Shown one piece after another: positions 8,386 through 52,600 of a stretch of 64,000 bases of DNA (within the stretch, counting starts at the first letter, position 1; the number at the start of each line of letters is the position of its first letter). The stretch comes from Lyngbya sp. CCAP 1446/10. GTDB taxonomy: Bacteria; Cyanobacteriota; Cyanobacteriia; Cyanobacteriales; Microcoleaceae. The notes beneath the pieces are model-generated. The model made no database searches, was not told the origin of the DNA, and was given only the letters and a program-made list of their open reading frames with translations. The position numbers and the translations under genes are program-made. The stretch covers positions 62,001 to 126,000 of the forward strand of contig NZ_JAIGNI010000008.1 of NCBI RefSeq assembly GCF_026130175.1, read 5' to 3'.

Positions 8386-8389
8386 GTTA

Positions 8390-8872
8390 TCACCCTAATT
8401 CATCGATTAACTTTTGTCTTTCTGTCTCAAGATTCAGCCTCACCACTTGCTCTAGTTGATGGCTATCTTTAACCTCAATCATTGGCGCAGTGCTGTACAC
8501 ATACTTTAGTAACTTCTGGATTTTATCCTGTCCTGATCCTGCCCATTCTCTGCGAATGTTGTCCAGCATTAGTTTTAGTCCTACAGGTAATTCTAAATCA
8601 TCGACATTACCTGCTTCGGCACCAAGTCGGATAAATATGGTTTCTCCGACAGATTCTTGCACAATTGTTTTGCCATTCATTTGATTTAAGGTAACAATGA
8701 TGTCTTCGTTCCAAGGGCTATAGTGATAATAACGCCAATGTAGCTCTGTAAGCTGTTTGTTTGTCCATTTGACAGAATAAAGGTCGGCTAAATATAAAAA
8801 TTTGATTAATTGCGTTTTTGTAATATGACCTTTTGTGGCGTAAACAAAATACTTGATGAGGGTTTCTAGCAT
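8390..8872 (-). CDS. Panacea-domain (SocA-like, DUF4065) antitoxin
   Basis: 160 residues. The Panacea signature is visible: TKTQLIKFLYLADL near residue 20, ELHWRYYHYSPWNEDI near 45-58, and an alpha-helical C-terminus ending LETERQKLIDELG. Panacea domains are known as promiscuous antitoxin domains paired with very different toxins. The gene lies directly upstream of a PemK/MazF-like gene with a 4-base gap, the expected antitoxin-first order. Start ATG at 8870-8872. Confidence 0.8.
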   Translation of the reverse strand: MLETLIKYFVYATKGHITKTQLIKFLYLADLYSVKWTNKQLTELHWRYYHYSPWNEDIIVTLNQMNGKTIVQESVGETIFIRLGAEAGNVDDLELPVGLKLMLDNIRREWAGSGQDKIQKLLKYVYSTAPMIEVKDSHQLEQVVRLNLETERQKLIDELG

Positions 8873-28506: not shown

Positions 28507-29508
28507 ATGGAAAACGATTCGATTGGTAAGTCTGGGATTGATAAAGATAAAAATGGCTCGGCTCCGCAAAGCTGGGTGAGGGCATTTTGGGAGTTTGCTC
28601 GGCCGCATACGATTATCGGGACTACGTTGAGTGTAATGGCTTTGTACGCGATCGCCCAAAGCACCAGTTCCTTTGCGAATCCGATATTTCTGCCACTAGC
28701 TTTTGCCTGGTTGGCTTGCATTTGTGGCAATATTTATATTGTGGGATTGAACCAGTTAGAAGATGTTGAAATTGATCAGATTAATAAGCCGTATTTGCCG
28801 ATCGCCTCTGGAGCGTTTTCTCGCAAAACTGGCGAATTAATTGTAAGTGTAACCGGAATCCTAGCAGTTGTGACTGCTATTTTACAAGGCCCGTTTTTGC
28901 TGGCTACAGTTGGGGTGAGTTTGGTAATCGGGACTGCTTATTCTCTGCCGCCAATTCGGCTGAAACGGTTTCCTTTTTGGGCGGCGCTGTGCATTTTTAC
29001 GGTGCGTGGGGCGATCGTCAATTTAGGTCTGTTTCTGCACTTTAATTGGGTTTTGGGCTTGGGAAAGGCGAAAAACGCTTTCTCTGGCTGGAGTTTGGAT
29101 AGCGCGTCTTTGGCAATTCCGGCGGAAGTTTGGGTGCTGACGGTGTTTGTGATTGTGTTTACTTTTGCGATCGCCATTTTCAAAGATATCCCTGACATGG
29201 AGGGCGACAAGCAATACAATATTACTACGTTTACGATCGAGCTGGGCAAACCGGCTGTCTTTAATTTGTCTCGCTGGGTGTTGACGGTTTGCTATTTGGG
29301 CGCGACTTTAGCCGGAGTAGTCACATTGTCTAATGTTAATTTAGTATTTCTGGCAGTTGCTCATTTCGTGGCTTTGGGTTTGATGTGGTTTTGGAGTGTC
29401 AAAGTTAATTTGGACGAGCAGAAAGAAATTGCCGATTTTTATCAGTTTATCTGGAAGTTGTTTTTCTTAGAATATTTGATTTTTCCCGCTGCTTGTTTGT
29501 TAGGATAA
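28507..29508 (+). CDS. Homogentisate phytyltransferase (UbiA family)
   Basis: 333-residue membrane prenyltransferase that joins homogentisate with phytyl diphosphate, the committing step of tocopherol synthesis. ARPHTIIGTTLSV near the N-terminus, the first aspartate motif NQLEDVEIDQINKPYLP and the second, KDIPDMEGDKQY, are all present among about nine transmembrane helices. It matches the VTE2/slr1736 type. It lies 140 bases downstream of the tocopherol methyltransferase gene on the same strand, across a heptamer array. Start ATG 28507. Confidence 0.93.
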   Translation: MENDSIGKSGIDKDKNGSAPQSWVRAFWEFARPHTIIGTTLSVMALYAIAQSTSSFANPIFLPLAFAWLACICGNIYIVGLNQLEDVEIDQINKPYLPIASGAFSRKTGELIVSVTGILAVVTAILQGPFLLATVGVSLVIGTAYSLPPIRLKRFPFWAALCIFTVRGAIVNLGLFLHFNWVLGLGKAKNAFSGWSLDSASLAIPAEVWVLTVFVIVFTFAIAIFKDIPDMEGDKQYNITTFTIELGKPAVFNLSRWVLTVCYLGATLAGVVTLSNVNLVFLAVAHFVALGLMWFWSVKVNLDEQKEIADFYQFIWKLFFLEYLIFPAACLLG

Positions 29509-29702: not shown

Positions 29703-32700
29703 ATGGCTTCTAAGAAAAAATCGCAAAAATCTGCCGTCAAAATGCGTGCTGAAGATTCTTTGAACATAGCTTGGACACATCATCAAGCGGGGCGTTTGTT
29801 AGAAGCTGAAAATTTGTACCGGCAAATCGTGGAAGTGCAGCCGGAGTCAGCAAACGTGTTGTGTTTGTTGGGAATAGCAGTCAGACAGCAGGGAAAAGTG
29901 GCTGAGGCGATCGACTTTTACGATCGCGCGATCGCCCAAAACCCCGATTTTGTAGAAGCACATTTAAACAAAGCCCATGTTTTGATGGATGTCGGCGACA
30001 GTCAAAGGGCGATCGCCAGTTACGAACAAGTCATCCAACTTTCACCAAATACCGCACTAGCATACAATAATTTGGGCTGGATCAAACAGCAATTGGGCGA
30101 AATCGACTCGGCAATTTCATATTATCAAACAGCGCTCAAACTCGACCCAAACCTGGTTGAAGCCGCCCACAATTTAGGAAAAATATTTACAGAAAAAAAT
30201 CAACTCAACGATGCAGCAGCCTGTTATTTACACGCTTTAAAAATTAATCCTAAATTGACATATTCTCTGCTAGGCTTGGGCAGAGTTTTGCAGCAGCAAG
30301 GTAAATTAACCGAAGCTTTCAACTACTACCAGCAAGCTTTAGAAATAGAACCGCACAATCCCGACGCGCAAAACAATATCGGAGCATTTTACCACGAACA
30401 AGGCAATACAAAAACAGCCATAGACCACTACCGACAAGCATTAAGCTTAAAGCCCGACTTCGTGGATGCTATTAACAACCTCGCCCACGCTTTAGTAGAT
30501 TTAGGAGAATTTCAAGAGGCTTTTACTTGTCACCGTCGAGCCTTGGAATTGCAGCCAGACAACGCCATCGCACACCTGGAATTAGCCTTAAGTTTGCTAT
30601 TGTTCGGAGATTATCAGCGCGGTTTTGCTGAATACGAGTGGCGGTGGCGCACTCCGACACTACAACCGAGGCAATTTCAACAGCCGCTTTGGGATGGTTC
30701 CGATTTGCATTCTAAAACTATTTTACTCCACGTTGAGCAAGGTTTGGGCGATTCGATTCAGTTTATTCGCTACGCGCCGATTCTTCGCAGCCGAGGCGCT
30801 AAAGTTCTGGTGGCTTGCTATCCTGAATTAATGCGGTTGTTTGCGACTGTTGCCGGCATTGAATATTTATCAGTTAGTTTTGAGGGTTTACCAGTATTTG
30901 ACTTTCACGTACCGCTGATGAGTTTACCCAGAATTTTGGGGACAACTCTCGAAACAATACCCGCAAATGTTCCTTATTTGAGTCCGCCTGCTGAGTGCAA
31001 GTTTGCGCTGGCTTCTGATGCCAACTTGAAGGTGGGAATTGTGTGGGCGGGGAGTCCAAAACGGCGGAAAGATAATCAGCGCTCTTGCAATTTAAGCGAT
31101 TTTATTCAATTTTTGGATGTGCCAGGAATCGCTTTTTATAGTTTACAAAAAAACTTGTCGGAGTGCGATCGCACTTTATTACACCAGCATCTAGTCCCGG
31201 ATTTGAGTCCGCATCTGATCGATTTTGCTGATACGGCTTCTGCTATATCTCAATTGGATTTAGTAATTACTGTTGATACATCGGTGGCGCACTTGGCTGG
31301 TGCTTTGGGAAAACCGGTTTGGGTGCTGCTGTCTTTTGCTCCTGACTGGCGCTGGCTGCTGGAGCGCGAAGACAATCCTTGGTATCCAACTGCAAGGCTT
31401 TTTCGCCAAATTCAGCCGGAAAGTTGGCAAGAATTGTTTGATGATGTGCACGCGGCTTTGAGTTTATTTGCGATCGCAAATTCTGGTACTTTTGCCGATA
31501 TTTCTGTCGAGGATGCTGCGAAAAATCAGCCACTGGAATTGACAGCTACCAGCCCGGTTGAGGAGAGTAAACAAGTATTTGCGATCGCGGGCGAAGCGTT
31601 AGCGACTGACTCACCAGTCAAGGATTCGCAGGGGATTGAGACATCTCTGGCGATCGCAAATTCGCTGATTTTAGAGGATTTATTGCGACAAGCAGAACAT
31701 TTAATGGAAACAGGCGATAAGCAAGAAGCGATCGCCCTTTATGATCAAATAATATCTCTCGATCCAAATTGCGTGCAAGCGCGGATTAACTTTGGTTTTC
31801 TCAAACAAGAAAATGGCGAATTAGATGCAGCTATCCCGCATTATCAAGAAGCTTTAGCGATCGCTCCAAACATCCCTCAAACAGCTTATAACTTAGCCAA
31901 AATTTTTGAGGAACAAGGTAAAGTGGAAGATGCGATCGCGCATTACGAACAAGCTCTGATTGCTGAACCGGATTTCGTGCCTGCACTGATTAATTTAGCG
32001 GTGGCGCTGCAAGAAAAGGGGGAACTTTTAAGGGCGCTCGATCTGTACCGGCGGGCGCTGGAAATTCATCCCCATAGCTGGGAAGCTTACAACAATCTGG
32101 CAACTGTTTTGCAAGAACAGGGCAATTTAGAAGAGGCACTGGAGTATTATCACAAAGCTCTGGAATTGCTGCCGGACTTTGTGGAAGCTATCAACAATTT
32201 AGGCAGAACTTTTCTGGAAAAAGGCGTAGTTGAAGATGCGATAGCCTGCTACAGACGGGCGATTTATTTGAATCCAAATCATGCTAGCGCTCACCTGAAT
32301 TTGTCCTTGGCTTTGCTGTTGGCCGGAGACTTGGAAAATGGTCTCACCGAATATGAATGGCGCTGGACAATTCAAGAATTTAAAACTAGCCATTCCTGTT
32401 TTTTGACGGCACAGGGAAATACACTTTCAGCAAGAGAATACCGGCCACTGTGGGATGGTTCCGATTTGCAGGGAAAGACTGTTTTACTGCACGCTGAACA
32501 AGGTTTAGGCGATTCGATTCAGTTTATTCGCTACATTGCGATCGTCAAACAGCAAGGTGGCAAGGTAATTGTTGACTGTTATCCACAATTGCGCCGTTTG
32601 TTTGCCATGATTGATGGCATTGATTTGCTCATAGTTAGAGGTGAACCTCTGCCGGAATTTGATGTGCAAGTGCCGATGTTGAGTTTACCCTATGTTCTCG

Positions 32701-35700
32701 GTACAAAACTGGCAACAATTCCGGCAACTACTGCTTATTTATCTCCGCCTGCGGGTGCTGAATTTGCGCTTTTGCCCGATCGCAATTTGAAAGTTGGGAT
32801 TGTCTGGGCGGGGAATCCCAAACACCGCAAAAATACACAGCGTTCTTGCAGTTTGAGCAAGTTTCTGCCGCTTTTGGACGTTTCGGGGGTAACTTTTTAC
32901 AGCTTGCAGAAAGAGGTTTTAGAGACCGATCGCGCGCTGTTGAATCAAACGCCGATCGTCGATTTGAGCCCGCATTTTGGGGATTTGGCCGATACTGCGG
33001 CTGCGATCGCCAAACTGGATTTAGTGATTACTGTCGATACCGCTGTCGCCCATTTGGCGGGCGCTTTGGGCAAACCAGTGTGGATTTTGCTGGCGTTTTC
33101 CCCGGATTGGCGATGGTTGTTGGAGCGCGAAGACAGTCCTTGGTATCCGACGGCGCGGCTGTTTCGCCAACGGGAAAGGGGGGACTGGCAGGGGGTTTTT
33201 GAGCGGGTGGCGGAGGCTCTAGGCGCTGTTTCCGCAGCATTTGTGCCCTCGGATGCGGCGAATGCAGAGTTTCGCGAGGGTCGAAATTTGCAGGTGCAGG
33301 GCAATTTTGCTGGTGCGATCGAATGTTATCAGCGGGCGATCGCGATCGATCCAAATTACGCGGCAGCCCACAGCAATTTAGGCGTTGTCAAACAGCAAAG
33401 CGGGCGGTTAACAGAGGCGATCGCGCACTACCAACAAGCGCTAGAAATCGACGGGAATTTGGCGGAAACTGCGAGCAATTTGGGCAGCGCGCTGGCGGAA
33501 GCAGGGGAGACTGCACAGGCGATCGCACAATACCAGCGGGCGCTGTCTTTGAACCCGAATTGCGCCGAAGCGATGATTAATTTGGGGCTGCTGCGGGAAG
33601 AAGAAGGGAAGGTGGCGGAGGCTTGCTCGCTTTACCAGCAAGCGATTCAAGTCAATCCTGATTGCGCGGCGGCTTATTTTAATTTGGGCATTGCTTTGGA
33701 GAAACAAGGGGAGGAAACGGGCGCGGATTACGATCGCGCGATCGCGAATTACGAAAGGGCGATCGAGCTAGATCCCAATTATTTGGACGCTTTGCACAAC
33801 TTAGCATACGCCTCGATCCGCCAGGGCCGAGTTGCAGATGCGATCGCCTATTACGATCGAGCTCTGGCGCTGCAACCCGATTTGACAGCAACCGATCTCG
33901 CTTTCGGCAGTTGGCTGTCAAACCAAGATCAGTTAGATGAGGCTCTAGCCTTTTGCCAGCAAGGAATTCAGAAATATCCAGCCAGTGCGGGCGCTCGCTG
34001 CAATCTGGCAATTGTCTTGCACAAACAAGGTAAAATTCAAGATGCGATCGCCTGCTATCAGCAAGCTTTGAGCCTGAAACCCGACTTTCCCGAAGCTTTG
34101 AACAATCTCGCTAAAGCTTTTGAGGAAGCGGGAAACATGGCTGAGGCGATGGATTGTTACAATCGGGCGATCGAACTCAAACCCGGTTATATCAATTCCC
34201 TCAACGGTTTGGGAAACATTTTGCACCAAAGCGGACAATTTGCCAGTGCTGTCACCTATTACGATCGAGCAGTTGAATTCAATATCACCAACCCAGAATC
34301 TCACCTAAATTTAGCTTTAGCCTTGCTGCTGGCGGGAGATTTTCAACGCGGTTTTACAGAGTACGAATCGCGGCTGGTTGTTGAGAAAAAACAGTTCCCG
34401 CAATACAACTTTCTTCAACCGATTTGGGACGGCAAAGATTTGGATGGAAAAACAATTTTGCTTTGCCCGGAACAGGGTTTAGGCGATGCAATTCAATTTA
34501 TTCGCTACGCAGAATTAGTCAAGCAAAAAGGCGGCCGGGTAATTGTTTGGTGTTTGCCGCACTTGCAGCGCTTGTTTGCACAAGTTGCGGGAATCGATCA
34601 GTTAATAATTAGTCCAGAAGCAGCGCCGGATTTTCAAGTTCGCGCCCACCTCATGAGTTTGCCGCACCTTCTGGGAACAACTTTAGAAAGTATACCCGCC
34701 CAGGTTCCTTATTTAGCTCCACCTCCCGGCGGGGAATTTACTTTCAACCAAACTGCTAATTTGAAAGTAGGGATTGTCTGGTGTGGCAATACTAACAATT
34801 CACAAAATAAACTGCGATCGTTTCCGCTCAATTTGTTAGCCAAAATATTAGAGATTCCCGGAGCGGATTTTTACAGTTTGCAAAAGGAAATGACAGCAGA
34901 AGAACGCGCTTTGTTAGAGCAAATGCCCGTCACAGATTTAAGCTCTTATTTGTACGATTTTGCCGATACAGCGGCCGCAATATCGGCTCTGGATTTAGTA
35001 ATTTCTGTTGATACTTCTGTGGCGCACTTAGCTGGTGCTTTGGGCAAACCGGTGTGGATTTTGCTGTGTTTTGTACCGGATTGGCGGTGGATGTTGGAAC
35101 GGGAAGATAGTCCTTGGTATCCGACGGCGCGACTGTTTCGTCAGTCAACAGCGGGGGATTGGGAAGGAGTTTTAGAAAAGGTTGGTTTCGCGCTCCGAGA
35201 AAGAATTGCTCAGCATCAGAAAGCTCAACCAATAATAGAAACTCAGCTTAATTTTGACTTGGCTAAGAAACAATTCGATAGGGGAAATCTGCTGAAGTCG
35301 CAAGGAAAATTCATCGAGGCGATTTCGTATTTTGAAAATGCTTTAGTTTTGGAGCCAAATTCGATTGAAGTCGCCACCAATTTAGCGGTGACGCTGCACC
35401 AAACAGGGGATTTAGCCGAAGCTGCGACGTATTATCAGCGCGCGATCGAAATTGACCCGAACTGCGCTCAAGCGCAAAATAACTTGGGTATTTTGCTGCA
35501 AGATCGGGGGAATATAGCCGAGGCTGTAGTTTGCTTTCAAAAGGCGATCGCCCTAAATCCCGTTTATGTCAAAGCCCTGAACAATCTCGGCGCGACACTC
35601 CAGCAGCAGGGCGAGTTGTCAAGTGCGATCGCCTGTTTTAATCAAGCACTTTCCATCAATGCCAATTACGTGCCGGCTATCGTAAATTTGGGTGCGGCAA

Positions 35701-38700
35701 TGCAAGCAACAAATCAGCTAGAAGAAGCTAAACGCCTTTATTGTCTGTCAATTGAGATAGAACCTGACAGCGCCGCAGGACATTATCACCTGGGAAATTT
35801 GTTCTTAGAAATGCACCAATTCGATCGAGCTGCGGTTAGCTTAGAAAAAGCCATAACCTTACAGCCAAATTATGTAGAAGCGCTGAATAATTTAGGCACA
35901 GTTTTAGAAGCAAATCACGAAATAGACCGGGCAATTTCATTGTACAATCAAGCTATTAGTTGCGATCCAAATTGTGCAAAATCTCACTTCAATTTATCCT
36001 TAGCGCTGCTATTAACAGGTGACTTACCTCGCGGTTTTGCAGAGTACGAATGGCGCTGGCAAACCGATCAAGCAAAGAAAATACAGTGGTTGAATTTCGA
36101 TCGCCCGATTTGGGACGGTTCAGATTTGCACGGAAAAACTATTTTGATTCGCTGCGAACAAGGTTTGGGTGACGCAATTCAATTTGTGCGCTACGCGGCA
36201 ATTGTGCAGCAAAAAGGCGGCAAAGTAATCCTTTCTTGCTATCAAGAACTCAAGCGTTTATTCAAGCAGATTCCTGGCATCGAACAAGTGGCGGTGCGGA
36301 TGGACGAATTGTCCGATTTTCAAGTGCAAGTACCGCTGATGAGTTTGCCGCACATTCTGGAAACAAATTTAGAAAATATACCAGCAAATGTTCCTTATTT
36401 AGCAGCGCCGCCGCATTGGCAATTTTCCCTAAATGCCGATGGCAATTTCAAAGTTGGGATTGTCTGGGCGGGAAGTTCGGAACATTTGAAGGATTTTCAG
36501 CGATCGAGTTATTTAAGCTATTTCCTGAAATTGTTAGATATTCCCGGTGTCAGTTTTTACAGTCTTCAGAAAGAAGTGTCGGTTGCTGATCGCATTTTGT
36601 TAAATCAAACTTCTGCGATCGATTTGAGCGACAATTTGAACGATTTCGCTGATACTGCGACGGTGATATCGCAACTAGATTTAGTCATTTGCGTGGATAC
36701 TGCTGTGGCGCATTTAGCCGGTGCCTTGGGTAAACCTGTCTGGATTATGCTCTCTTTCGTGCCCGATTGGCGGTGGATGTTGCAGCGCGAAGATAGCCCT
36801 TGGTATCCCACTGCGCGGTTGTTTCGGCAGGAAACAGCGGGTGATTGGGATGGCGTGGGCGATCGGGTAAAAATAGCTTTACAAGAGTTAACAAAATCCT
36901 TGATTGCGAGTGAAACATCGCCATCGCCCAGTCTTGTCTCTGCCAAAAAACTAACAGCAGTTGATGTGGATTTTCAGATAGCAAATGCCTTACGAAAACA
37001 AGGGAAACAAGCCGAAGCAGCCAGTCGCTACGAACAAGTAATTCTCGCCTCACCAAACCACGCAGAAGCCCACAGTTATTTAGGTTATTTTAAACAGGAA
37101 AACGGGCAAATAACCGAGGCGATTTTCCACTACAACCAAGCCCTAAAAACTAATCCAAATCTCAGCGAAACTAACTTATATTTGGGTGCCGCCCTCGAAG
37201 AAGAGGGAAAATTCGCAGAGGCGATCGAATTCTACAATAAAGCAATTCAACTACGTCCAGAATCACCAAATTGGCGTTTGAGACTAGCCTTAGCTTTGCT
37301 CTTAACGGGAAATTTTGAGCGCGGCTTTGCGGAGTACGAATCGCGCTGGCAAACTCAAGAATTGGAGCCCCGATATTTCGATCAACCGCTTTGGGACGGT
37401 TCCGATTTGCAGGGGAAAACAATATTATTGCACCCAGAACAAGGTTTGGGCGACACGATTCATTTTATCCGCTACGCATCTTTAGTTAAGCAAAAAGGTG
37501 GCAAAGTTGTTGTTGCTTGTCATCAATCGTTGAAGCGTTTGTTTGAAAAAGTTGCAGGGATAGATATTGTAGCAACAAAGCCGCAAGATTTGCCGGATTT
37601 TCAAGTACAAGCGCCGCTGATGAGTTTGCCCCGAATTTTGGGAACGACTTTGGAAAATATGCCTGTAAATATTCCTTATTTAAAAGTGCCAGAGGATTGT
37701 AAATTTTCCCTAGAATCAAACAATCAGCTAAAAGTAGGTATTGTGTGGGCTGGTGGGCCGCTGCACCGCAAGAACAATGATCGATCGTGTAAGTTAAGCG
37801 ATTTTGTGAAGTTTTTAGATGTTCCGGGAGTGAGTTTTTACAGCCTGCAAAAAGATTTACCAGCGAGGGATTACGCTTTATTAAATCAACAGCAAGTTCA
37901 AGATTTGAGTCAACATTGCGTTGATTTTGCCGACACCGCAGCGATTATTTCCCAACTGGATTTAGTAATTTGCGTAGATACTTCTGTGGCGCATTTAGCC
38001 GGTGCGTTGGGGAAACCGGTGTGGATTTTGCTGTCTTTCATTGCCGATTGGCGGTGGATGTTGGAACGGGAAGATAGCCCTTGGTATCCCACTGCGCGGT
38101 TGTTTAGGCAGTCAAAACCCGGTGATTGGGATGCCGTGGGCGATCGGATAAAAGCAGCACTGCAAAACCTAATTTCTAATTCTAAAAAGGCAGAAGCGAC
38201 AACGCCCCTACAAACCCTGGCCGGGGCGGGCACGGGGGCACCGCCCCTACAAATTCCCCCAGAAACCCCGCCAAAAATAACAGGAATCGGCATCAGTTGG
38301 CCGCTCAGCCTCACCAGCGGCTGGGGAATTTACGGCATGAATTTAACACTGCAACTGCTGCGAAATCCCGCCTGGGAAGTGGCACTTTTAGTCCCGCCAT
38401 CCATCACCTCAGAATCGCTCAATCCGCTGCACAAATCGCTGTTATTACCCCTAATAGAAAAGCAGAAACATTTTCAAGAATTAGTAACCGCGAATTATGA
38501 CAAACAAATCGCTTTTAACTTTCCCGTACTTTACGGTTTGGGGAATAATTTAGTAACGTCAGGAGTAGAGAATCAACTTACCAGCGCTTGTCAAGTAGGA
38601 GTCATATTTTTTGAAGACACGCGCATCACAGCAGAAGCCGTAGAAAAAGCGAAAAAATATAGCGTAATTGTCGCCGGTTCTAACTGGAATGCGGATGTTT

Positions 38701-39455
38701 TGCGAAGCTGTGGCTTAACGAATGTGGCGATGGTAAATCAAGGAATTGACCCGACAATTTTCCATCCTGCACCCAAATCTAATCTATTTGGCGATCGCTT
38801 CGTGATATTCTCCGGTGGTAAACTAGAATATCGCAAAGGCCAAGACATAGTAATTGCCGCTTTCAAACAATTTCGCGCCCGCCATCCAGAGGCATTATTA
38901 CTAACAGCGTGGCACAACTTTTGGCCTCAATATATGCTGGGAATGGAACAAACCGGAAACGTTACCGGACTTCCCAATATTAACCGCGATGGAAGTTTAG
39001 GAATATCCCAATGGTTGGCAGCCAACGGTTTACCGATTGACTCTTTTATCGACATCGGCTTAATACCCAATCACCTCGCGGGACAAATTTTGCGAGAAGC
39101 CGACTGCGCCGTTTTTACCAACCGCTGCGAAGGTGGCACTAATTTAGTCGCAATGGAAAGTATGGCCTGCGGAATTCCGACTATTTTATCAGCAAATACT
39201 GGTCATTTAGACTTGATTTACAGCAACATTTGCTATCCTTTATCGCATCAGGGACAAGTTAAACCTACTGCTCATTTTGCTGGTGTCGAAGGTTGGGGAG
39301 AGTCTGATGTTGCAGAAGTTGTTGATGCTTTGGAGCAAGTTTATAATAATCGCGAAGTTGCCAAAAATCGCGGTTTAGCTGCGGCAAATTTTATGCTGGA
39401 TTGGACTTGGAAAAAACAGGTTAATCGATTTCTTGATGTTATTACTCTTTTGTAG
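29703..39455 (+). CDS. Giant modular TPR/glycosyltransferase: five TPR-GT9-like modules plus C-terminal GT4
   Basis: 3250 residues. Five times a block of TPR repeats (about 8, 7, 11, 8 and 4) is followed by a GT9-like (heptosyltransferase-related) GT-B domain. Each transferase domain opens with WDGxDLxxKT and EQGLGDxI (Trp at 330, 917, 1575, 2137 and 2564) and carries VDT(S/A)VAHLAGALGKPVW (Val at 524, 1111, 1769, 2331 and 2758). The spacing between these marks is 194 residues in all five, while the TPR blocks differ in length. A GT4 domain follows from about 2859, with GGKLEYRKGQD and EGGTNLVAMESMACG. No signal peptide or membrane helix is seen, so it should be cytoplasmic. TPR-GT9 proteins are common in cyanobacteria but usually single-module. 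The acceptor is unknown; protein or sheath/surface polysaccharide glycosylation is inference. Start ATG 29703. Confidence 0.9.
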   Translation: MASKKKSQKSAVKMRAEDSLNIAWTHHQAGRLLEAENLYRQIVEVQPESANVLCLLGIAVRQQGKVAEAIDFYDRAIAQNPDFVEAHLNKAHVLMDVGDSQRAIASYEQVIQLSPNTALAYNNLGWIKQQLGEIDSAISYYQTALKLDPNLVEAAHNLGKIFTEKNQLNDAAACYLHALKINPKLTYSLLGLGRVLQQQGKLTEAFNYYQQALEIEPHNPDAQNNIGAFYHEQGNTKTAIDHYRQALSLKPDFVDAINNLAHALVDLGEFQEAFTCHRRALELQPDNAIAHLELALSLLLFGDYQRGFAEYEWRWRTPTLQPRQFQQPLWDGSDLHSKTILLHVEQGLGDSIQFIRYAPILRSRGAKVLVACYPELMRLFATVAGIEYLSVSFEGLPVFDFHVPLMSLPRILGTTLETIPANVPYLSPPAECKFALASDANLKVGIVWAGSPKRRKDNQRSCNLSDFIQFLDVPGIAFYSLQKNLSECDRTLLHQHLVPDLSPHLIDFADTASAISQLDLVITVDTSVAHLAGALGKPVWVLLSFAPDWRWLLEREDNPWYPTARLFRQIQPESWQELFDDVHAALSLFAIANSGTFADISVEDAAKNQPLELTATSPVEESKQVFAIAGEALATDSPVKDSQGIETSLAIANSLILEDLLRQAEHLMETGDKQEAIALYDQIISLDPNCVQARINFGFLKQENGELDAAIPHYQEALAIAPNIPQTAYNLAKIFEEQGKVEDAIAHYEQALIAEPDFVPALINLAVALQEKGELLRALDLYRRALEIHPHSWEAYNNLATVLQEQGNLEEALEYYHKALELLPDFVEAINNLGRTFLEKGVVEDAIACYRRAIYLNPNHASAHLNLSLALLLAGDLENGLTEYEWRWTIQEFKTSHSCFLTAQGNTLSAREYRPLWDGSDLQGKTVLLHAEQGLGDSIQFIRYIAIVKQQGGKVIVDCYPQLRRLFAMIDGIDLLIVRGEPLPEFDVQVPMLSLPYVLGTKLATIPATTAYLSPPAGAEFALLPDRNLKVGIVWAGNPKHRKNTQRSCSLSKFLPLLDVSGVTFYSLQKEVLETDRALLNQTPIVDLSPHFGDLADTAAAIAKLDLVITVDTAVAHLAGALGKPVWILLAFSPDWRWLLEREDSPWYPTARLFRQRERGDWQGVFERVAEALGAVSAAFVPSDAANAEFREGRNLQVQGNFAGAIECYQRAIAIDPNYAAAHSNLGVVKQQSGRLTEAIAHYQQALEIDGNLAETASNLGSALAEAGETAQAIAQYQRALSLNPNCAEAMINLGLLREEEGKVAEACSLYQQAIQVNPDCAAAYFNLGIALEKQGEETGADYDRAIANYERAIELDPNYLDALHNLAYASIRQGRVADAIAYYDRALALQPDLTATDLAFGSWLSNQDQLDEALAFCQQGIQKYPASAGARCNLAIVLHKQGKIQDAIACYQQALSLKPDFPEALNNLAKAFEEAGNMAEAMDCYNRAIELKPGYINSLNGLGNILHQSGQFASAVTYYDRAVEFNITNPESHLNLALALLLAGDFQRGFTEYESRLVVEKKQFPQYNFLQPIWDGKDLDGKTILLCPEQGLGDAIQFIRYAELVKQKGGRVIVWCLPHLQRLFAQVAGIDQLIISPEAAPDFQVRAHLMSLPHLLGTTLESIPAQVPYLAPPPGGEFTFNQTANLKVGIVWCGNTNNSQNKLRSFPLNLLAKILEIPGADFYSLQKEMTAEERALLEQMPVTDLSSYLYDFADTAAAISALDLVISVDTSVAHLAGALGKPVWILLCFVPDWRWMLEREDSPWYPTARLFRQSTAGDWEGVLEKVGFALRERIAQHQKAQPIIETQLNFDLAKKQFDRGNLLKSQGKFIEAISYFENALVLEPNSIEVATNLAVTLHQTGDLAEAATYYQRAIEIDPNCAQAQNNLGILLQDRGNIAEAVVCFQKAIALNPVYVKALNNLGATLQQQGELSSAIACFNQALSINANYVPAIVNLGAAMQATNQLEEAKRLYCLSIEIEPDSAAGHYHLGNLFLEMHQFDRAAVSLEKAITLQPNYVEALNNLGTVLEANHEIDRAISLYNQAISCDPNCAKSHFNLSLALLLTGDLPRGFAEYEWRWQTDQAKKIQWLNFDRPIWDGSDLHGKTILIRCEQGLGDAIQFVRYAAIVQQKGGKVILSCYQELKRLFKQIPGIEQVAVRMDELSDFQVQVPLMSLPHILETNLENIPANVPYLAAPPHWQFSLNADGNFKVGIVWAGSSEHLKDFQRSSYLSYFLKLLDIPGVSFYSLQKEVSVADRILLNQTSAIDLSDNLNDFADTATVISQLDLVICVDTAVAHLAGALGKPVWIMLSFVPDWRWMLQREDSPWYPTARLFRQETAGDWDGVGDRVKIALQELTKSLIASETSPSPSLVSAKKLTAVDVDFQIANALRKQGKQAEAASRYEQVILASPNHAEAHSYLGYFKQENGQITEAIFHYNQALKTNPNLSETNLYLGAALEEEGKFAEAIEFYNKAIQLRPESPNWRLRLALALLLTGNFERGFAEYESRWQTQELEPRYFDQPLWDGSDLQGKTILLHPEQGLGDTIHFIRYASLVKQKGGKVVVACHQSLKRLFEKVAGIDIVATKPQDLPDFQVQAPLMSLPRILGTTLENMPVNIPYLKVPEDCKFSLESNNQLKVGIVWAGGPLHRKNNDRSCKLSDFVKFLDVPGVSFYSLQKDLPARDYALLNQQQVQDLSQHCVDFADTAAIISQLDLVICVDTSVAHLAGALGKPVWILLSFIADWRWMLEREDSPWYPTARLFRQSKPGDWDAVGDRIKAALQNLISNSKKAEATTPLQTLAGAGTGAPPLQIPPETPPKITGIGISWPLSLTSGWGIYGMNLTLQLLRNPAWEVALLVPPSITSESLNPLHKSLLLPLIEKQKHFQELVTANYDKQIAFNFPVLYGLGNNLVTSGVENQLTSACQVGVIFFEDTRITAEAVEKAKKYSVIVAGSNWNADVLRSCGLTNVAMVNQGIDPTIFHPAPKSNLFGDRFVIFSGGKLEYRKGQDIVIAAFKQFRARHPEALLLTAWHNFWPQYMLGMEQTGNVTGLPNINRDGSLGISQWLAANGLPIDSFIDIGLIPNHLAGQILREADCAVFTNRCEGGTNLVAMESMACGIPTILSANTGHLDLIYSNICYPLSHQGQVKPTAHFAGVEGWGESDVAEVVDALEQVYNNREVAKNRGLAAANFMLDWTWKKQVNRFLDVITLL
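38205..38255. repeat. REP-type sequence inside the coding region of the giant gene
   Basis: CGCCCCTACAAACCCTGGCC, then GGGGCGGGCACGGGGGCACC and CGCCCCTACAA: a common cyanobacterial intergenic palindrome type, here in frame. It writes the linker between the fifth module and the GT4 domain (TPLQTLAGAGTGAPPLQIPP). Confidence 0.7.
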
Positions 39456-39527: not shown

Positions 39528-41117
39528 CCCTGTCAAGGTGACTGCCGAGCTTGGTCTAGAAGCCTTGCTGTAGAAAGATGACGATGACGTGAGTCTACAA
39601 TCAAAGGTGGTTTCTTCTTCTTGGGGGAGCGCGGCTGCTTGAGGAAAGACTTCAAATTCACTCGCCCGGCCAAATCCAACAGAAAATCGGCTAATTGAGA
39701 TAGGGATAAAGCCTTCAAATGTGACCAATTATCAGGTTCACAGGCTATAGTCATACCCCGATAAGTCCCTTGAATTTCATCAACCAAGTAGAATTCTGAA
39801 AGACTAGACTCAATTTTACCGACACCATGTACACTGCCCAACGCTCTTCGGACTACAGCTAAAATATTGTAAGAAACCAGAGCTAGACAAAAAGAAAATA
39901 AAGCAGCTTTCGGATACCCCAAGGTTTGAATTTCGCCCTCAAAGTTCTTAGTTACGATTTGAAAGAGAGTTTCAACACTCCAACGTTCTCGATATAACTG
40001 AGTAATATCGGTAGCACTGGCAACAGTTTTAGGTAGGCTAGTAAGTATGGCAATTTCCCAATCGCCATCACGAGTAACTTTTTTCAAACGCAATACCACC
40101 CGTCGTACTTTCAAACAGCTACCCTCATAAGTGAGAGCAACTGTCTGTTCAAAAACAGAGCCTGTTTCTATATCACCTTGAAATTCCAATTCACTGATTG
40201 CTTCCTGTGGCAGAGTTTTATGTTCTCGGACTAAAAAATCAGCAGAGGCGTTACAGATACCAAAGAGAAACCCTTGAGTACACATATTGCGATCGGCAAT
40301 CCATAATTCACCAGGTTTTACCCGTTGTAATACCGACTCAAATAAAGAACGTTCCTGAGCGTGACCATCCTCACAAGGAAACACATCAATCGCCATTTTC
40401 AAGTCTGGGTCAAGTACAACCAAAGACTTACCAGGTAAAGCTTTCGCTGCATAGGGCTTCAAGGCTTCTAAACGATGATCTGTAGCAGCTAAACAGTTGC
40501 CATCAATGATTCTGATTTGATAAGGAGCTAGTAACTTTGGTGGACTATCTCCCAGAAATTCCATCACATCAGTCATAGAGGCAGCAGTTTCTCTTAACAG
40601 TGCAGCACTCACATCTAGTTCGATGCCATTAAGTTTGTCATAGACCGCTGTTCGACTGACATTAAGCTCCGATGCTTTGGCTCGGTATGCAGCATTCACG
40701 GAAGGATAGATGCCACAAACTACCAGGCTCATTAAATCTACGATGCTGGAGAATAGGAGTTCTCGCGTGTACTGGCTCTTGGCATGATTCTCAAAGATGG
40801 AGTCGAGTTGTTCTGTGTTCAATACTCGTTCCATTAAGCCTCGGACCATGACACTGACAGGACTGAGCTTGACAAATCTCTCAAAGATGGCATCTAACAT
40901 TTACGAGCGTCCTCCTAAATACTGCAAAATGGGGTGAGCCAATAGCTTGTATGCTAGTCATACAAGGTTTCAACCATTATACCGATACCCGCAAATCGAA
41001 GAGAACGGCAACAGTCGCTGATCTAAGTTTATTCGTAAGGTTGCCAAGCTTGTCGCCAGCGACCGTTGCCGTTCAAGATTCACCAAGAATGCCTGAATAA
41101 AGAACACCTTGACAGGG
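39528..41117. mobile_element. IS4-type insertion sequence, 1590 bp, complete
   Basis: Perfect 13-bp terminal inverted repeats CCCTGTCAAGGTG (39528-39540) and CACCTTGACAGGG (41105-41117), flanked by a 4-bp direct repeat CTAG (39524-39527 and 41118-41121). It contains one intact transposase gene on the minus strand. Confidence 0.92.
39533..40900 (-). CDS. IS4-family DDE transposase
   Basis: 455 residues, apparently intact. First acidic site RIIDGNCLAATDHR, second ELWIADRNMCTQGF, and the IS4-type YREK region YRERWSVETLFQIVTKNFEG with the third catalytic Glu. Its stop codon lies inside the left terminal inverted repeat. No frameshift or stop is seen, so the element may be active. Start ATG 40898-40900. 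Confidence 0.92.
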   Translation of the reverse strand: MLDAIFERFVKLSPVSVMVRGLMERVLNTEQLDSIFENHAKSQYTRELLFSSIVDLMSLVVCGIYPSVNAAYRAKASELNVSRTAVYDKLNGIELDVSAALLRETAASMTDVMEFLGDSPPKLLAPYQIRIIDGNCLAATDHRLEALKPYAAKALPGKSLVVLDPDLKMAIDVFPCEDGHAQERSLFESVLQRVKPGELWIADRNMCTQGFLFGICNASADFLVREHKTLPQEAISELEFQGDIETGSVFEQTVALTYEGSCLKVRRVVLRLKKVTRDGDWEIAILTSLPKTVASATDITQLYRERWSVETLFQIVTKNFEGEIQTLGYPKAALFSFCLALVSYNILAVVRRALGSVHGVGKIESSLSEFYLVDEIQGTYRGMTIACEPDNWSHLKALSLSQLADFLLDLAGRVNLKSFLKQPRSPKKKKPPLIVDSRHRHLSTARLLDQARQSP

Positions 41118-41219
41118 CTAGCAATGCGCACCCTACGGGAATTAATATCATTTCAATTTTTGAAACCGGTGCGCAATGCGCACCCTACGGGAATTAATAT
41201 CATTTCAATTTTTGAAACC
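41118..41219. repeat. 52-bp tandem repeat, right part, overlapping a gene 3' end
   Basis: Two further units after the IS, the second running into the last codons and stop (41200-41202) of the 1110-residue protein gene. The GTGCGCAATGCGCAC palindromes could act as its 3' hairpins. Confidence 0.85.
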
Positions 41220-44200
41220 ATACTCCTGTTTCATCAATCCTATGCAGAGAAAATGACTCACCTTTCATCTTCTCAAAATCCTGTAATGCTTGCTTGCAGC
41301 CCTCCCAATGTCCGTAATCATCCACCTGAATCAAACCATTAGCAATCACACTGTCATAAAGCGTATTAAATATATCCATTGTTGACTCATACCAATCTCC
41401 ATCAGCGTGCAGAAACGCAATACTTCCTATTGCTGACTTGTATTTGGGTAAAGTCTCGGCGAATAATCCCTTAACCGGTACCACAATATTTCTAACTTGC
41501 AGTAATTCACAAATTTTATCCAAATTTTCACTAATTGCAGCTTTGAGAGTTCCTTCGCCAAAATCTGTGAGATTGGCAGGTATTCCCTGATGTTTATCAA
41601 TCTCGGTAGGTGCCGGCATTCCTTCAAACGTATCAAAAGCATACAGCACTCTCGGACGGCGGCTGTAATGTTTAATTACAAATGCGATTAACGCCGCTGA
41701 ACCGCCTTTGCAAGTTCCGCATTCTACAAAATTTCCCGGCAAATCTTCCACACATATTTGCTTTGCTAGGGAGTATAGCGAAAACAATCGAGCTTCGCTT
41801 AATAATGTGTAAGGTTCGATCGCTAAAAGTATTGCTTGAAAATTGTCATCAAACGGCTTATTTACAACTGATGCACCGAGGGATGGCGGGGCTTTTATTT
41901 TCTTTAAAAAACCATTGGTACACCAAGTAATGTTATAGCCAAAGTAATCGCAATAATTGCTATCAATTTCATATTCGGCTTCGTGTGCGGAGAGGAACTG
42001 TTTCAATGCTTTGTGAGGGCCATTGTTATATGAAGCATCTTGCTCTAAATCTGAAATAATTCCGTCTTCAATAACAATATATTCTTCCTGCTTAAGATAC
42101 GGATGGAAGAACTCCAAGACGTGCTTGCTGGTTTCGTAGGTATGGTCAGCATCTTCTATTACCAGTAAGGGACGCGGCAATGAGTTGATAAACTCTGATG
42201 TTAATATTTCTGGTAAAGCTCGTCCGTTTCCTTCCATGTAAGTGACGCGAGGATGTTGGACTGAAGTCACTTTGAAAATATCAATAGAATAAATGTGACC
42301 GTCAATGCCAAAATTATTTAGCATATCTGCAAACCACAAAGCACTCCCACCATATTTAGATCCAATTTCAATAATTGTGAGCGGTTTTAAGTTCCAAAAT
42401 AATAGAGGGTACAGCGTAAAATCGAAGGGATTTTTGAGCATCTGTACGCCTCGATATGAATAGTTCAAAGTGGCGTTTTGAATTGACAGCAGATGTTCGC
42501 GCGGAAGAGTTGTATTCCACGAACGTTGCTGTGTGGGTATTTTTAGTTGCGGACGCAATAAAGCCCTAGTTAATTTTTCAACTTGCGCTTGTGCTTGGCG
42601 GTGGGTTGGATCGATCGCCAGTTCTACTTTAGCCGCTGCAAGTGCTTCCTGATGCCGCCCTAAATTGCTCAAACAAACTGAACGCAGGTAGTACATTCCT
42701 GGTACATTGATATTTAGTAAAGCGACTTGTTCAGCTATTCGCATAGCTTCTACGGGATTATTGCTATGGAGGAATGTAACAGCTTGCTGCATCATTTCAT
42801 GCACTTGTCGTACAGTGACTTCTCGATCTACAGATTGATTGTTTGAAATACCGCTAATTGAATAACCCTGCAAATGGGCTGGCAAATCCCAGGAAATATT
42901 GGGGTCTGGTTGATGTTGGACGGGCGTAACATTGCCACGCCAAGCTGCCCCCATAATTTGCATTGTTTGATATACTATAGTATGCCAACCTCTTTCTTTC
43001 AAGTAATCTAAACCCTTAGCAACAGCGGGAGCAGCTAAATCGTGAAATAAAATTATGGCATCTTCTTCTGCCAAGTTTTCGCACGCAATGGCATCATTTA
43101 ACGGCCCATCACCTTCGTGTTCTCCGTCAATAAAAATTAACGACCATTTGCGGTTAAATTCCTTTGCTAATTGTTCAACTCTTGGTGGGCTGTAACCGGG
43201 TACGAGCTTCACGGAAGTTTGCATGCCAGAGGCATTGAGAGCGCCTTGAATTGAATCGATGACGCTTTGTCGAATGTCTTCTCTTTCTAGCAGCGGATCG
43301 ATCACATCTAATTCAACTCCTGCGAGGGCTAAGTGACAAGCAGACCATCCCAGCCAGCAGCCTATTTCTAATGCTTTTTTCCCGGCAAATTGCAGGGCTG
43401 TATTGTAAAGAATGTGTGCTTCGTCGCGACTGAGGAATCCGACTGAACTAGCACGGCGATCGACATACCAGTTGTGCTTGATTTCCCGGCGCAGGTAGGG
43501 CCACGGACAAGTATTAGTATCCCCAACAACCATGTTGGGAAAGTACGCATCTGGAAGGATGATTTTCAATCCGGGCGAGACGTAATCTCCGGGTAACAAA
43601 GTATTGTGGGGGATTTCAGATTGTGGTTTTAATGTCATTTGCTTTGGTTTTAACTGTTGAAATACTGGGTGTTGTATCGGTTGATAGCGGAGACTAATTT
43701 CTATTTGATTTCCGTCGGTTGTTGCTAATTTTACCAAGTCGTGCTTGTGACCGGTGATGTGCAGAATGCCGATCGCCCCATGCGGCAAATACGGCTCCAC
43801 AAAACAGGCCCGTTGCTTGTCCCAGACGGGCAAACCGAAGTTGCAGCTCCAGTTACACAGAGCCTGCAGCATCTCTGTGCGATCGAACATTTCAGTGCCG
43901 TAAACCAACCGATTTAAAGCTATTTGGTCGGTCATCAAAGAAACGTGCCGCTGCAATCCCTCTGCCAGATATTCCGACCATAATTCCCAGTGCGGGGCAT
44001 CTTTTTGCAGTGCGAAAACACCTGCATTTATAGTTGGATAAGTGTGCAACTGTTGGGCAATTTCTTCGCCGAAAGCTGCTTGATAATCGCGGTAAACAAA
44101 TTCCCAATACCAAGGCAGTTTGCCGTAAGCTAAATAATAGCCTCTGTCTAATTCTGGAACAACTGCTAAACCGCGTTTTGCCGCGCCTTTAACTAACAGT

Positions 44201-44532
44201 TCAACAGCTTGCCAATCCTGCACCCAAGCATCGGCATCTATCCACAGGTAGATGTCAAAATTAGGGAAGTAGCGGCGCAAAAATGGACGTGCTAAAAGTC
44301 CTTTGAGATAGTGAGGAGCTTCGTTTTTACCGGGAAAGTCAAAGTCCCAATCAGGTTTTTGAATAAAATTAACTTGTGTTTCCAGCCACTGTAATTGTTC
44401 GGGAGTGCAGCCGAGATCGAAAAAGCCGATCGCCACCTTTGCACCCTCTGGTTTTTCCCGCACCGATAAAATAGTACCTCGCACCAGTTTAAAGTAATTT
44501 GCATCGGCGGCCGTGATGATGATAATCTGCAT
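41200..44532 (-). CDS. Four-domain fusion: GT8-like glycosyltransferase, Methyltransf_24, CmcI-like and TylF/MycF-like methyltransferases
   Basis: 1110 residues. Residues 1-290: GT-A glycosyltransferase with LWIDADAW (D99, D101) and the closing ILHITGHKH. Residues 340-535: class I SAM methyltransferase, motif ALEIGCWLGWSACH, with FIDGEHEGDG. Residues 575-660: TPR-like helices. Residues 680-880: cephalosporin-hydroxylase/CmcI-like domain, IIEIGSKYGGSALWFAD and VIEDADHTYE. Residues 895-1110: TylF/MycF-type O-methyltransferase, NFVECGTCKGGSA, FDTFEGMP and LHADGDWYEST. No signal peptide. Convergent with the giant glycosyltransferase gene, so the pair may build and methylate one glycan, which is inference. 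Start ATG 44530-44532, directly preceded by a heptamer array rather than a ribosome binding site. Confidence 0.87.
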   Translation of the reverse strand: MQIIIITAADANYFKLVRGTILSVREKPEGAKVAIGFFDLGCTPEQLQWLETQVNFIQKPDWDFDFPGKNEAPHYLKGLLARPFLRRYFPNFDIYLWIDADAWVQDWQAVELLVKGAAKRGLAVVPELDRGYYLAYGKLPWYWEFVYRDYQAAFGEEIAQQLHTYPTINAGVFALQKDAPHWELWSEYLAEGLQRHVSLMTDQIALNRLVYGTEMFDRTEMLQALCNWSCNFGLPVWDKQRACFVEPYLPHGAIGILHITGHKHDLVKLATTDGNQIEISLRYQPIQHPVFQQLKPKQMTLKPQSEIPHNTLLPGDYVSPGLKIILPDAYFPNMVVGDTNTCPWPYLRREIKHNWYVDRRASSVGFLSRDEAHILYNTALQFAGKKALEIGCWLGWSACHLALAGVELDVIDPLLEREDIRQSVIDSIQGALNASGMQTSVKLVPGYSPPRVEQLAKEFNRKWSLIFIDGEHEGDGPLNDAIACENLAEEDAIILFHDLAAPAVAKGLDYLKERGWHTIVYQTMQIMGAAWRGNVTPVQHQPDPNISWDLPAHLQGYSISGISNNQSVDREVTVRQVHEMMQQAVTFLHSNNPVEAMRIAEQVALLNINVPGMYYLRSVCLSNLGRHQEALAAAKVELAIDPTHRQAQAQVEKLTRALLRPQLKIPTQQRSWNTTLPREHLLSIQNATLNYSYRGVQMLKNPFDFTLYPLLFWNLKPLTIIEIGSKYGGSALWFADMLNNFGIDGHIYSIDIFKVTSVQHPRVTYMEGNGRALPEILTSEFINSLPRPLLVIEDADHTYETSKHVLEFFHPYLKQEEYIVIEDGIISDLEQDASYNNGPHKALKQFLSAHEAEYEIDSNYCDYFGYNITWCTNGFLKKIKAPPSLGASVVNKPFDDNFQAILLAIEPYTLLSEARLFSLYSLAKQICVEDLPGNFVECGTCKGGSAALIAFVIKHYSRRPRVLYAFDTFEGMPAPTEIDKHQGIPANLTDFGEGTLKAAISENLDKICELLQVRNIVVPVKGLFAETLPKYKSAIGSIAFLHADGDWYESTMDIFNTLYDSVIANGLIQVDDYGHWEGCKQALQDFEKMKGESFSLHRIDETGVWFQKLK

Positions 44533-49661: not shown

Positions 49662-52600
49662 TTACCAAGGCGAACCAATCATCGTAAAAGCAGCCCAATA
49701 ATAAGGATGCGACAAATTTTTATCGCCCCTGGCGGCCAATTCCGCAGGCAAAGGCAGAGCTTGATTATTACCCGATCGCACCAAATAACCATCCTGCAAC
49801 CGCACTTCCCCGCGCAGCATCGCCAACTGCGCTTGCCGCAAAGCCTCAGCCTTAATCGGCGCCGTGCGCAACTGCTGGTAAAACTCAGTCATCAGCCCCA
49901 AAGTTCCAGCATCGCTGACATACCACAAACTCGCCAAAGCCGATTTTACCCCAGCGTGCACCGCCAACCCCGCAAACCCCAACTCAGCTTGTTCGTCACC
50001 CACCGCCGTAGTACACGCACTCAAAACCAACAACTCCACCTGCGGGTTAGATAACTTCAACTCACCCAACTGATTTAACCGCAACTTAGTATCCCAAAAC
50101 TGAATGTAAGAATTTTCCGATCCCCCTGGCTGAAAATCGCCGTGAGTAGCCAAGTGAATAATTTTGTATTGCGGTTGATTGCGCTTATTCTTCAAATTTG
50201 CCAAGGTAAAAGCTTCATTGAGAAAAGACGCACCAGGCCAAATCTTGCCCACAATTGTTGATATTTCCAGGGGCACAGCAGGCAAAGGATTTTGATCGTA
50301 TTTTTCGGGAAACTTCGACGCACCCATCGCCAAAACTTCAGAACCTTTAACATCGGCATAGCGAGTATCAGTCAAACTCAAACTGGGAATCAACCCCAAA
50401 CTATACTTTTCTACCAAGAACTGTTTGCCATCAAAAAGAGCAGCTAAAGGCAAAGTTCGCAAACCGGCATCCATTGAAAACACCAAGGTGTCAATTTTGT
50501 TAGCCTCCAATTCCGCTTGCATCGGTGCAATTAACCACTGATAAAGTTCCTGGCCAGGTTCCTTGTAATCAGTAGCATTCAATCTCTTAGGAGATCTCAC
50601 AGCATTAGTGAATTCTTTAGCAACTTGCAGAACAGTTTCGCGGCTTGCAGACACAGTTTTAAAAATATTTTTGCCGTCTGGCAATAACAACACAAGTTCT
50701 AAATGTTGCTCTTTCGCCCACACATAAACGATCGCGGGTTTAACCCCAGTCAATCGATTGACACTGCTGAGAGTATCTCGGATACTTTGTGGTGTGACTG
50801 ACTTTTGATCGAGATTGCCACCAAAATAACGTTCAAATTCCCGGCCCTGAGCTCTATCCCTTTGCTGCACTGCGTCGATCGGACTTATTTGCATCGCACT
50901 CGATCGAGAAATCTCAGGAAACCTCAAATTCCCGACATTTTCTGAATTTCCACCACTCGCGGGCTTCTGTGCCGTTGCCACAGTGCCACCGTTTTCTGTC
51001 GCCACAGGTGTGCCCAGATTGTCTTTTAACACAAACGGCGATAGCAGTACCGACCCGGTTGCAGTCTCATTCGATCCCCCCTCAACAGGTACAGCAGTCC
51101 CTCCTGGCGAGACATTTACGATACCGCTCTTTGACTCAGACACTGCGGGAGTCTGAGTGACAATTTGTGGAGAATTGCCTGTAGTTTTTAGTGCCACGGT
51201 GGTGGTAGTTGTTGCTGGACTCGGCAGACTGAGCACTGGGCTGGTAACACTTGAGGTGGCAGAGTTCGACTTCGAGTTTCCCGTGCCAACAGTTGCCACC
51301 GTGCAGGCTCCTAACGGGCAAGAGCTTTGTAGCAGAGTCAGCGAACCCGATCGCACCTGCCCATCTGTAGAAATGCTAACGCTGGCGCGATCGGCAGTCG
51401 TTCCCGTTCCTGCAGCCCGAAACGTTCCCCCAGCATCGATTGCCACATCGCCGCCCGTATTGCCATTAGCTTTGATCGAAACAACTTCCACATCTTTCTG
51501 CCCATTAATCTTGCTCGAACCGGCACTTCCCGACTGCGAACTCGAATTGATCACTCCTGTCACGATCCGGCCCGGCGCCACGATCGAGATATCTCCGCCA
51601 CTTTTTGCACCGAAAGCATTGACATTGCCAGATTCTACCGCACCCGCGCTGCGGATGTTGATATCGCCCGCCGTCCCGTTTGCCGATCGAGATGACACAA
51701 CACCAGCAGTCACATTACCTTGACTGCTAGTGATGTTAATCCCCGCATTCGAGGTAACGTCTCCGACTGTCACAGTACCGCCCATCAGAGCGATGCTAGC
51801 GTTATCAATTCCCACGATCGCACCCGTTCCCATGATCGCACCCATTCCCAAGGGCGAGCGAATCGTCGTCGGATCTTGAAATGTCACCGCCGGCGTTGAA
51901 TCTGAGGCTGTGGTTGCCGGAGTAATCACAATTTGGCCGCTACCGTCAGCACGCCCGATTGCTACGGAAGCAAAGCCATTCCGCAGCGAGTTCAATTCCG
52001 CAGCAGTCAAATCCAAAGCCTCAGTCTCAGCAGCACCGGCAATCGTCACATTTTGAGCCGGATCGGACGGTTGCAGCACCAGATTGCCGTTGCTGCCGAT
52101 CGAATTATTGCCACCAGTCAAATCAATTTCATTGCCTGTCAGAGTAATATTTCCCCCTGTTTCCGAGCCGCCAGCTTGGATCGCCTCAGCAGTCACTCCG
52201 TTGCGCCCTGTTAGCGTCACATTTCCCGCGCGATCGCCCCTCGTGTCGATCGCAGCCACTGTTACCGTACCCTCTGCGGTAACGCTTACATCACCCCCCG
52301 ACGTGCGTGGCACTTTGGCAGAATTGACAGAAGTGCTGATGCTGGGCGGATTTCCCGTGCGTAGCTTAGCCGTAGTGACATTACCCGCCGTGCTCGTGAT
52401 CCGAATTTCCTGATTGTTGGTAGTGATATTTCCCGTGCGGATATTGCCCTCAGCTTTCAGAGTAATTGAGGCATTGTCCGCCCCTGTCAGGGAACTTGTG
52501 CTCGTGATTGTTCCCAAACCCGCCGGCGATTGAATCATTAGCGGGTCATAAAATGTGAAATCATTAGCAATCAGAATCGAACCAGTACCGTTGCGGAGGC

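Follow-up and report, generated by a model that had tools for sequence, protein, structure and literature searches.

Five GT9-type glycosyltransferase modules on tetratricopeptide-repeat arms in one cyanobacterial polypeptide: a candidate multi-site protein glycosyltransferase

Why should a bacterium carry the same glycosyltransferase module five times over in a single polypeptide, and upon what might such an array act? The question is raised by a gene in a 64,000-nucleotide stretch of the genome of Lyngbya sp. CCAP 1446/10 (contig NZ_JAIGNI010000008.1, positions 62,001 to 126,000; hereafter the window), where a single, stop-free open frame at 29703-39455 on the forward strand encodes 3250 amino acids: five units, each of tetratricopeptide repeats (TPR) and a GT9-type domain, followed by a C-terminal GT4-type domain. 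TPR-tethered glycosyltransferases of flagellin and pilin are known, to our knowledge with one catalytic domain each. The array belongs to a family whose catalytic unit was multiplied on several separate occasions, reaching at least eight copies in one frame, and in which module positions have been frozen for the age of the genus. We lean towards reading the protein as a cytoplasmic protein glycosyltransferase with multiple active sites. The multiplied, position-frozen array with its GT4 domain and the length series found at one locus are new, whilst the parts (the GT9 fold, TPR-tethered protein glycosylation) are of known kinds. Judged by the titles and passages of open-licence papers, no description of multi-module TPR-GT9 proteins was found, and the passages of PMC2613160 merely tabulate other TPR fusions and glycosyltransferase-methyltransferase fusions.

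Layout and integrity of the frame

An earlier note on this DNA had described a single polypeptide in which five intact GT9-type domains sit on TPR arms and a GT4 domain forms the cap. The description stands, both by motif and in all 22 long frames compared within the genus (that of the window and 21 from orthologous loci, the latter picked by length, 3129-3381 amino acids among the matches listed), each of which holds five GT9 domains and a GT4 domain. The features of the gene are:

29703..39455, forward strand: TPR-(GT9)5-GT4 gene, 3250 amino acids, one open frame with known orthologues
29760..30560, forward strand: TPR block 1, 8 units, amino acids 20-286, by TPR profile
30558..31475, forward strand: GT9 domain 1, amino acids 286-591, by motifs and orthologue domains
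31701..32279, forward strand: TPR block 2, 6 units, amino acids 667-859, by TPR profile
32277..33230, forward strand: GT9 domain 2, amino acids 859-1176, by motifs and orthologue domains
33288..34349, forward strand: TPR block 3, 10 units, amino acids 1196-1549, by TPR profile
34290..35216, forward strand: GT9 domain 3, amino acids 1530-1838, by motifs and orthologue domains
35283..35972, forward strand: TPR block 4, 7 units, amino acids 1861-2090, by TPR profile
35970..36893, forward strand: GT9 domain 4, amino acids 2090-2397, by motifs and orthologue domains
36960..37259, forward strand: TPR block 5, 3 units, amino acids 2420-2519, by TPR profile
37260..38180, forward strand: GT9 domain 5, amino acids 2520-2826, by motifs and orthologue domains; modelled together with TPR block 5 (amino acids 2412-2826)
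38268..39452, forward strand: C-terminal GT4-type domain, amino acids 2856-3250, by Pfam; fused in 22 of 22 long genus frames and in other cyanobacteria

The Pfam GT9 model PF01075 scores 101.5 bits over the whole protein (gathering score 22) and 28.8 bits for domain 5 alone, and the C-terminal part matches the GT4 models PF00534 and PF13692, both over the cut-off. Pairwise identity among the five GT9 domains of the window is 59-65%. The TPR units, 34 in total as counted with a home-made profile, are unevenly shared between the blocks, and the unequal block lengths pointed out in the earlier note are mirrored across the 22 orthologues, where module-to-module distance runs from 524 to 606 residues (1 to 2), 586 to 662 (2 to 3) and 418 to 464 (4 to 5); the distance from module 3 to module 4 is mostly constant, at 562 in 20 of the 22. 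Within the domains, the motif WDGxDLxxKT starts at amino acids 330, 917, 1575, 2137 and 2564 and the motif VDT(S/A)VAHLAGALGKP at 524, 1111, 1769, 2331 and 2758. The claim that the two lie exactly 194 residues apart is thus true of all five window domains, but the notion of a special ruler is not borne out: the constancy arises because homologous domains align gap-free, and across 110 genus domains the distance from EQGLGD to VDT varies, being 179 in 92, 187 in nine, 195 in one and 180 in one, with seven unscored by the pattern. In each of ten orthologous loci a single module (3, 4 or 5) is longer by eight residues (once 16) in the stretch from EQGLGD to VDT, which resembles the insertion of an eight-residue unit.

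Could so large a frame be a product of assembly? The gene is broken by a frame change in three metagenome-derived loci (L070, L071, L077), which speaks for an artefact. Separate genes or stops, the danger raised in the earlier note, are answered by the single frame kept on long contigs and by its five domains in each of the 22 long frames, including those of the single-contig genomes G019 and G020; as these genomes carry the intact frame, the artefact reading is refuted. In the 171 contigs of the host genome the domain is matched by this gene alone, at five places. Among the matches listed, it is present in 27 of 28 other genomes of the genus, with exactly five matches in 23, the exceptions being G002 and G003 (four), G006 (three), G015 (eleven, in a genome with 7% contamination) and G009 (none, in a genome 84% complete). 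Because frames were picked by length, short, split or edge-cut copies (G002, G003, G006, G015, G024, G027) fall outside the 22. A natural short form exists inside the genus, the 1920-residue frame of Tychonema bourrellyi, whose GT9 domains number three and which lacks GT4.

Multiplication and conservation of the modules

Each of the five positions forms a group of its own, with 22 rows and SH-aLRT support of 99-100, in a tree of 129 domains (chosen for an EQG.GD-like anchor, at which one outgroup domain, module 2 of L057, was clipped), and all genus modules lie on one side of a branch (99) facing 19 domains from four relatives at family or order level. Such strict grouping by position indicates that the multiplication predates the genus and that positions have not been exchanged since. 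Mean identity of the Microcoleus GT9 domains is 79-86% within a position as opposed to 57-64% between positions, and of 310 alignment columns 90 are fixed and identical in all positions whilst only 10, including one gap, are invariant at each position but differ from one position to another. All five positions are under purifying selection: in seven comparisons, the ratio of non-synonymous to synonymous substitution rates (dN/dS) is 0.10-0.30 for GT9 domains, 0.10-0.16 for the GT4 domain and 0.08-0.52 for TPR blocks, of which block 2 is the slowest (0.08-0.18) and blocks 1, 3, 4 and 5 evolve faster than the adjacent transferase domains in most comparisons.

A wider homologue search, from which 80 of 573 matches were taken (75 distinct loci), places the array in a larger family. 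The earlier note had regarded multi-module forms as exceptional, a view that finds no support in that form: they recur in other cyanobacteria, in relatives of Geobacter and in alphaproteobacteria, with at least eight modules in one frame of Telmatospirillum, though single-module forms are common too. In a tree of 147 domains from selected loci, restricted to domains of 280-345 amino acids (which reduced L057 and L098 from four modules to three, L097 from three to two, L169 from seven hits to five and the Geobacter frames from six hits to four), 15 domains of Microcoleus type group with the single GT9 domain of L082 (99), whilst modules cluster with others of their own protein in Telmatospirillum (eight, 99), in the relative G327 (five, 97) and in L170 (three, 98); Trichodesmium and Okeania modules fall into two clusters (99, 100), as do those of Geobacter (86, 100). 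Modules grouping by protein or lineage in this way imply that the unit was multiplied separately in several lineages, how many times being uncertain, as support is weak on 52 of 144 inner branches and the tree has no root. At one and the same chromosomal slot the number of GT9 domains ranges over one (L082 and L139, the same place), three (L097), four (L098), five (Microcoleus) and six (L091), the single-domain form adjoining a UbiA-family gene as the slot does elsewhere. The GT4 domain is fused C-terminally in frames with one, two, three, four, five and seven GT9 domains; a domain search of L091 and of the Geobacter frames did not find it there. The Geobacter gene, of about 2240 amino acids, carries four whole GT9 domains followed by two half domains whose usual order is inverted, the C-terminal one coming first, in all six frames (one cut by the contig). 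At L125 (6956-13687) and in five orthologous frames, the C-terminal half directly follows domain 4, then comes a TPR-like stretch, and the N-terminal half stands last.

Fold, acceptor and mode of action

Searches of the Protein Data Bank by sequence, with one domain and with a five-domain profile, gave nothing significant, and a search by fold was therefore needed. Module 5 was modelled confidently as TPR plus GT-B fold from an alignment of the window's protein with 103 sequences, drawn from the 165 non-redundant ones among 211 candidates. The earlier note had named structural models lacking a GT-B sugar-donor site as a refuting outcome; the one module modelled has the GT-B fold. Its fold neighbours include the GT9 enzymes WaaC, WaaF and the Veillonella structure 3tov, together with TibC, and its best whole-chain matches are protein-modifying enzymes. 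The D and H that the VDTxxxH motif conserves (D2759 and H2764 of the window's protein) are present in all 110 genus domains, and hhalign places them on D261 and H266 of Escherichia coli WaaC over 31 columns with a probability of 75.5 (68.9 with WaaF added). The GLGD of the window domains resembles the SMGD of WaaC, whose D13 we take to be the N-terminal catalytic aspartate, the hhalign alignment having covered the C-terminal motif alone. Judged from sequence, all five domains look alive, as the earlier note had supposed, and each would be catalytically active.

In the reading we favour, each TPR block would form a groove gripping a stretch of a long, not-yet-exported polypeptide bound for the cell surface, and the GT-B domain that follows would move one sugar from a nucleotide donor to the polypeptide or to a sugar already placed; the fused GT4 domain may add a further, different sugar, and a convergently transcribed neighbour probably supplies tailoring, such as sugar O-methylation. 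That the acceptor may be a protein is suggested by the Geobacter relatives, where the array lies directly upstream of a flagellin gene in all five loci having downstream sequence. In a sample of one family, the ten genomes whose best match exceeds 60% identity all have flagellin 142-207 nucleotides beyond the last GT9 match; in three of the ten (G349, G357, G369) the array is divided between two adjacent frames, and in two the frame is shorter (1851 and 1904 amino acids). With single-module forms included, flagellin immediately follows a TPR-GT9 gene in 18 of 26 genomes, which were taken from a set of 40, and ten of the 18 have a multi-module array. The L125 stretch also holds a TPR-GT41 gene and an FkbM methyltransferase.

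Several observations weigh against extending this to the present protein. The other 8 of the 26 family genomes are without tight linkage, three (G353, G360, G377) having multi-module frames (1742-2186 amino acids) 15-20 kb from flagellin, and the 18 linked genomes are related, hence constitute one conserved association rather than 18 independent cases. The host genome was searched and flagellin is absent; among small-genome relatives across the phylum with listed TPR-GT9 matches, 14 of 20 are without flagellin, and the remaining six carry their flagellins on contigs other than those of the listed matches, with no linkage found, from which it follows that flagellin is not the general acceptor. 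No RTX match was found on this contig among the matches listed. Nor does the fold decide for a protein acceptor, since WaaC and WaaF act on lipopolysaccharide. Amongst relatives, G327 (L169) has an RTX calcium-binding gene some 2.6 kb downstream, a single case not used as support, and in Azospirillum sp. TSH100 the TPR-GT9 cluster at L165 (1-6735) has in its vicinity a 19.9-kb gene whose annotation is Ig-like domain protein, possibly a giant surface acceptor.

A lipid-linked or free polysaccharide as substrate, with the TPRs merely scaffolding other enzymes, would accord with WaaC and WaaF as fold neighbours and with the ordinary glycosyltransferases and methyltransferases that adjoin the gene in some relatives; we think this unlikely in view of the flagellin linkage in Geobacter relatives and of whole-chain fold matches that favour protein-modifying enzymes. 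It is far less likely that the modules are largely non-catalytic scaffolds, for which one may cite the odd redundancy of five similar domains and against which stand conserved residues at every position, the low dN/dS of the GT9 domains and the confident GT-B model.

Should a multi-site protein glycosyltransferase be accepted, its modules may work in turn or side by side; these are two halves of that reading, and their probabilities overlap with its own. Adding sugars in turn to one chain, with module number and order setting the length and make-up of a glycan that the GT4 domain terminates, is a somewhat doubtful proposition, which gains from positions that are frozen within the genus and separately conserved, from the variable module number at one slot with GT4 C-terminal wherever found, and from the split flagellin-linked arrays, as assembly lines can be divided; it loses from the ratio of 10 position-specific to 90 shared fixed columns, whereby the modules may well share one specificity. 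Placing the same sugar on different sites of a long, repetitive acceptor, with a gain in throughput or processivity, is possible and tentatively entertained: the same residues are conserved in all modules, TPR blocks other than the slow block 2 mostly evolve faster than the adjacent transferases, and the clustering of the eight Telmatospirillum modules is as expected for copies of one activity, whereas the higher identity within than between positions suggests position-specific roles. Conserved positions favour order and near-identical conserved cores favour parallel action, leaving the two about evenly balanced with a slight lean to the latter. Doubtful, and more ambitious, is a principle akin to that of polyketide synthases, in which ordered tandem TPR-GT9 modules (one to at least eight per frame) would write a protein glycan by their number and order, duplication and loss at a fixed locus would edit it, and a neighbour would swap tailoring cassettes.

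Set beside known systems, the modules share with WaaC, WaaF and 3tov a PF01075 score over the cut-off, the GT-B fold and the D261/H266 pair of WaaC, and differ in that the latter are single, TPR-free enzymes of the lipopolysaccharide core. TibC, a bacterial autotransporter heptosyltransferase, matches the modelled module in fold, but is an iron-containing dodecamer by its entry title, and the TPR array lies outside the match. Close in layout is FlmG of Caulobacter, which in the passages of PMC7591256 has 596 amino acids with a single N-terminal TPR region and a C-terminal GT-B-type domain, is needed for cytoplasmic flagellin O-glycosylation and binds flagellin through its TPR region. TPR units likewise precede every GT9 domain here, GT-B is modelled for module 5, and single-module relatives (596, 601 and 598 amino acids at L113, L118 and L130) are similar in size and layout; FlmG, however, has one module rather than five and lacks GT4, and its acceptor, flagellin, is absent from this host. 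The O-GlcNAc transferase and SPINDLY enzymes (GT41) also set a TPR superhelix ahead of a GT-B domain and act on protein, a cyanobacterial example being the pilin-modifying Ogt (PMC12288463, in the part seen). They differ in family: a host-genome search with PF13844 gave 11 places, all away from this gene, and domain 5 alone matches only PF01075. GT41-type matches in the host include large frames of 2339, 1491 and 1311 amino acids (contigs C118, C83 and C95), other big glycosyltransferases of the OGT kind.

If modules do act in order, the array would serve as template for a glycan carried on protein, and the one, three, four, five and six modules that nature provides at one locus would allow module number to be compared directly with glycan length. 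A part in sheath glycans, to which the earlier note pointed, would be conjecture. The array is also candidate machinery for the surface glycoproteins of gliding cyanobacteria, any link to oscillin, described as the fibril glycoprotein of Phormidium in the passages of PMC4284465, being a guess.

The convergent partner and the wider neighbourhood

The gene lies between two conserved neighbours:

28507..29508, forward strand: UbiA-family prenyltransferase, a syntenic marker upstream of the gene, by neighbourhood comparison
41200..44532, reverse strand: convergent partner, 1110 amino acids, by Pfam; amino acids 1-300 without a Pfam match, then Methyltransf_24, then RMNT/CmcI and TylF methyltransferase domains

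The UbiA-family gene, presumably homogentisate phytyltransferase-like, is upstream in 22 of 22 genus loci. The link to the multi-domain enzyme at 41200, which the earlier note had drawn, holds as a conserved neighbourhood, the partner being convergent and downstream in 16 of the 18 genus loci whose sequence continues for 2 kb or more past the gene. Its first 560 amino acids are conserved in the genus. The second half is swapped between species (by Pfam on nine partner genes of other genomes and BLAST for the rest), carrying methyltransferase domains (TylF, alone or joined by RMNT) in some and GT2, alone or joined by a methyltransferase, in others; it is missing in L045, and the partner is in pieces in L055. 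Such a pairing, in which the transferase array stays the same and its tailoring neighbour changes, would be in keeping with a surface glycan that differs from species to species. Sequence searches with amino acids 1-300 of the partner gave no Pfam family and no solved structure, and a model built from nine sequences reached a mean pLDDT of 38.4; a GT-A nature for this region is an impression.

Amongst the neighbours common to at least 12 of the 22 genus loci none resembles a surface protein that might serve as acceptor; they comprise two genes we take to be of tocopherol type, the partner, HemD, TrkH and TrkA. A DDE transposase (39533-40900, reverse strand) separates the giant gene from the partner in the window, the only one of the 22 loci to have it. 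Elsewhere in the window, 49662-54788 (reverse strand) encodes a protein of 1708 residues that combines a TPS secretion domain with a CHAT domain at its C-terminus, and adjacent Uma2, PemK-like and SocA-like genes at 7063-8872 resemble a toxin-antitoxin group.
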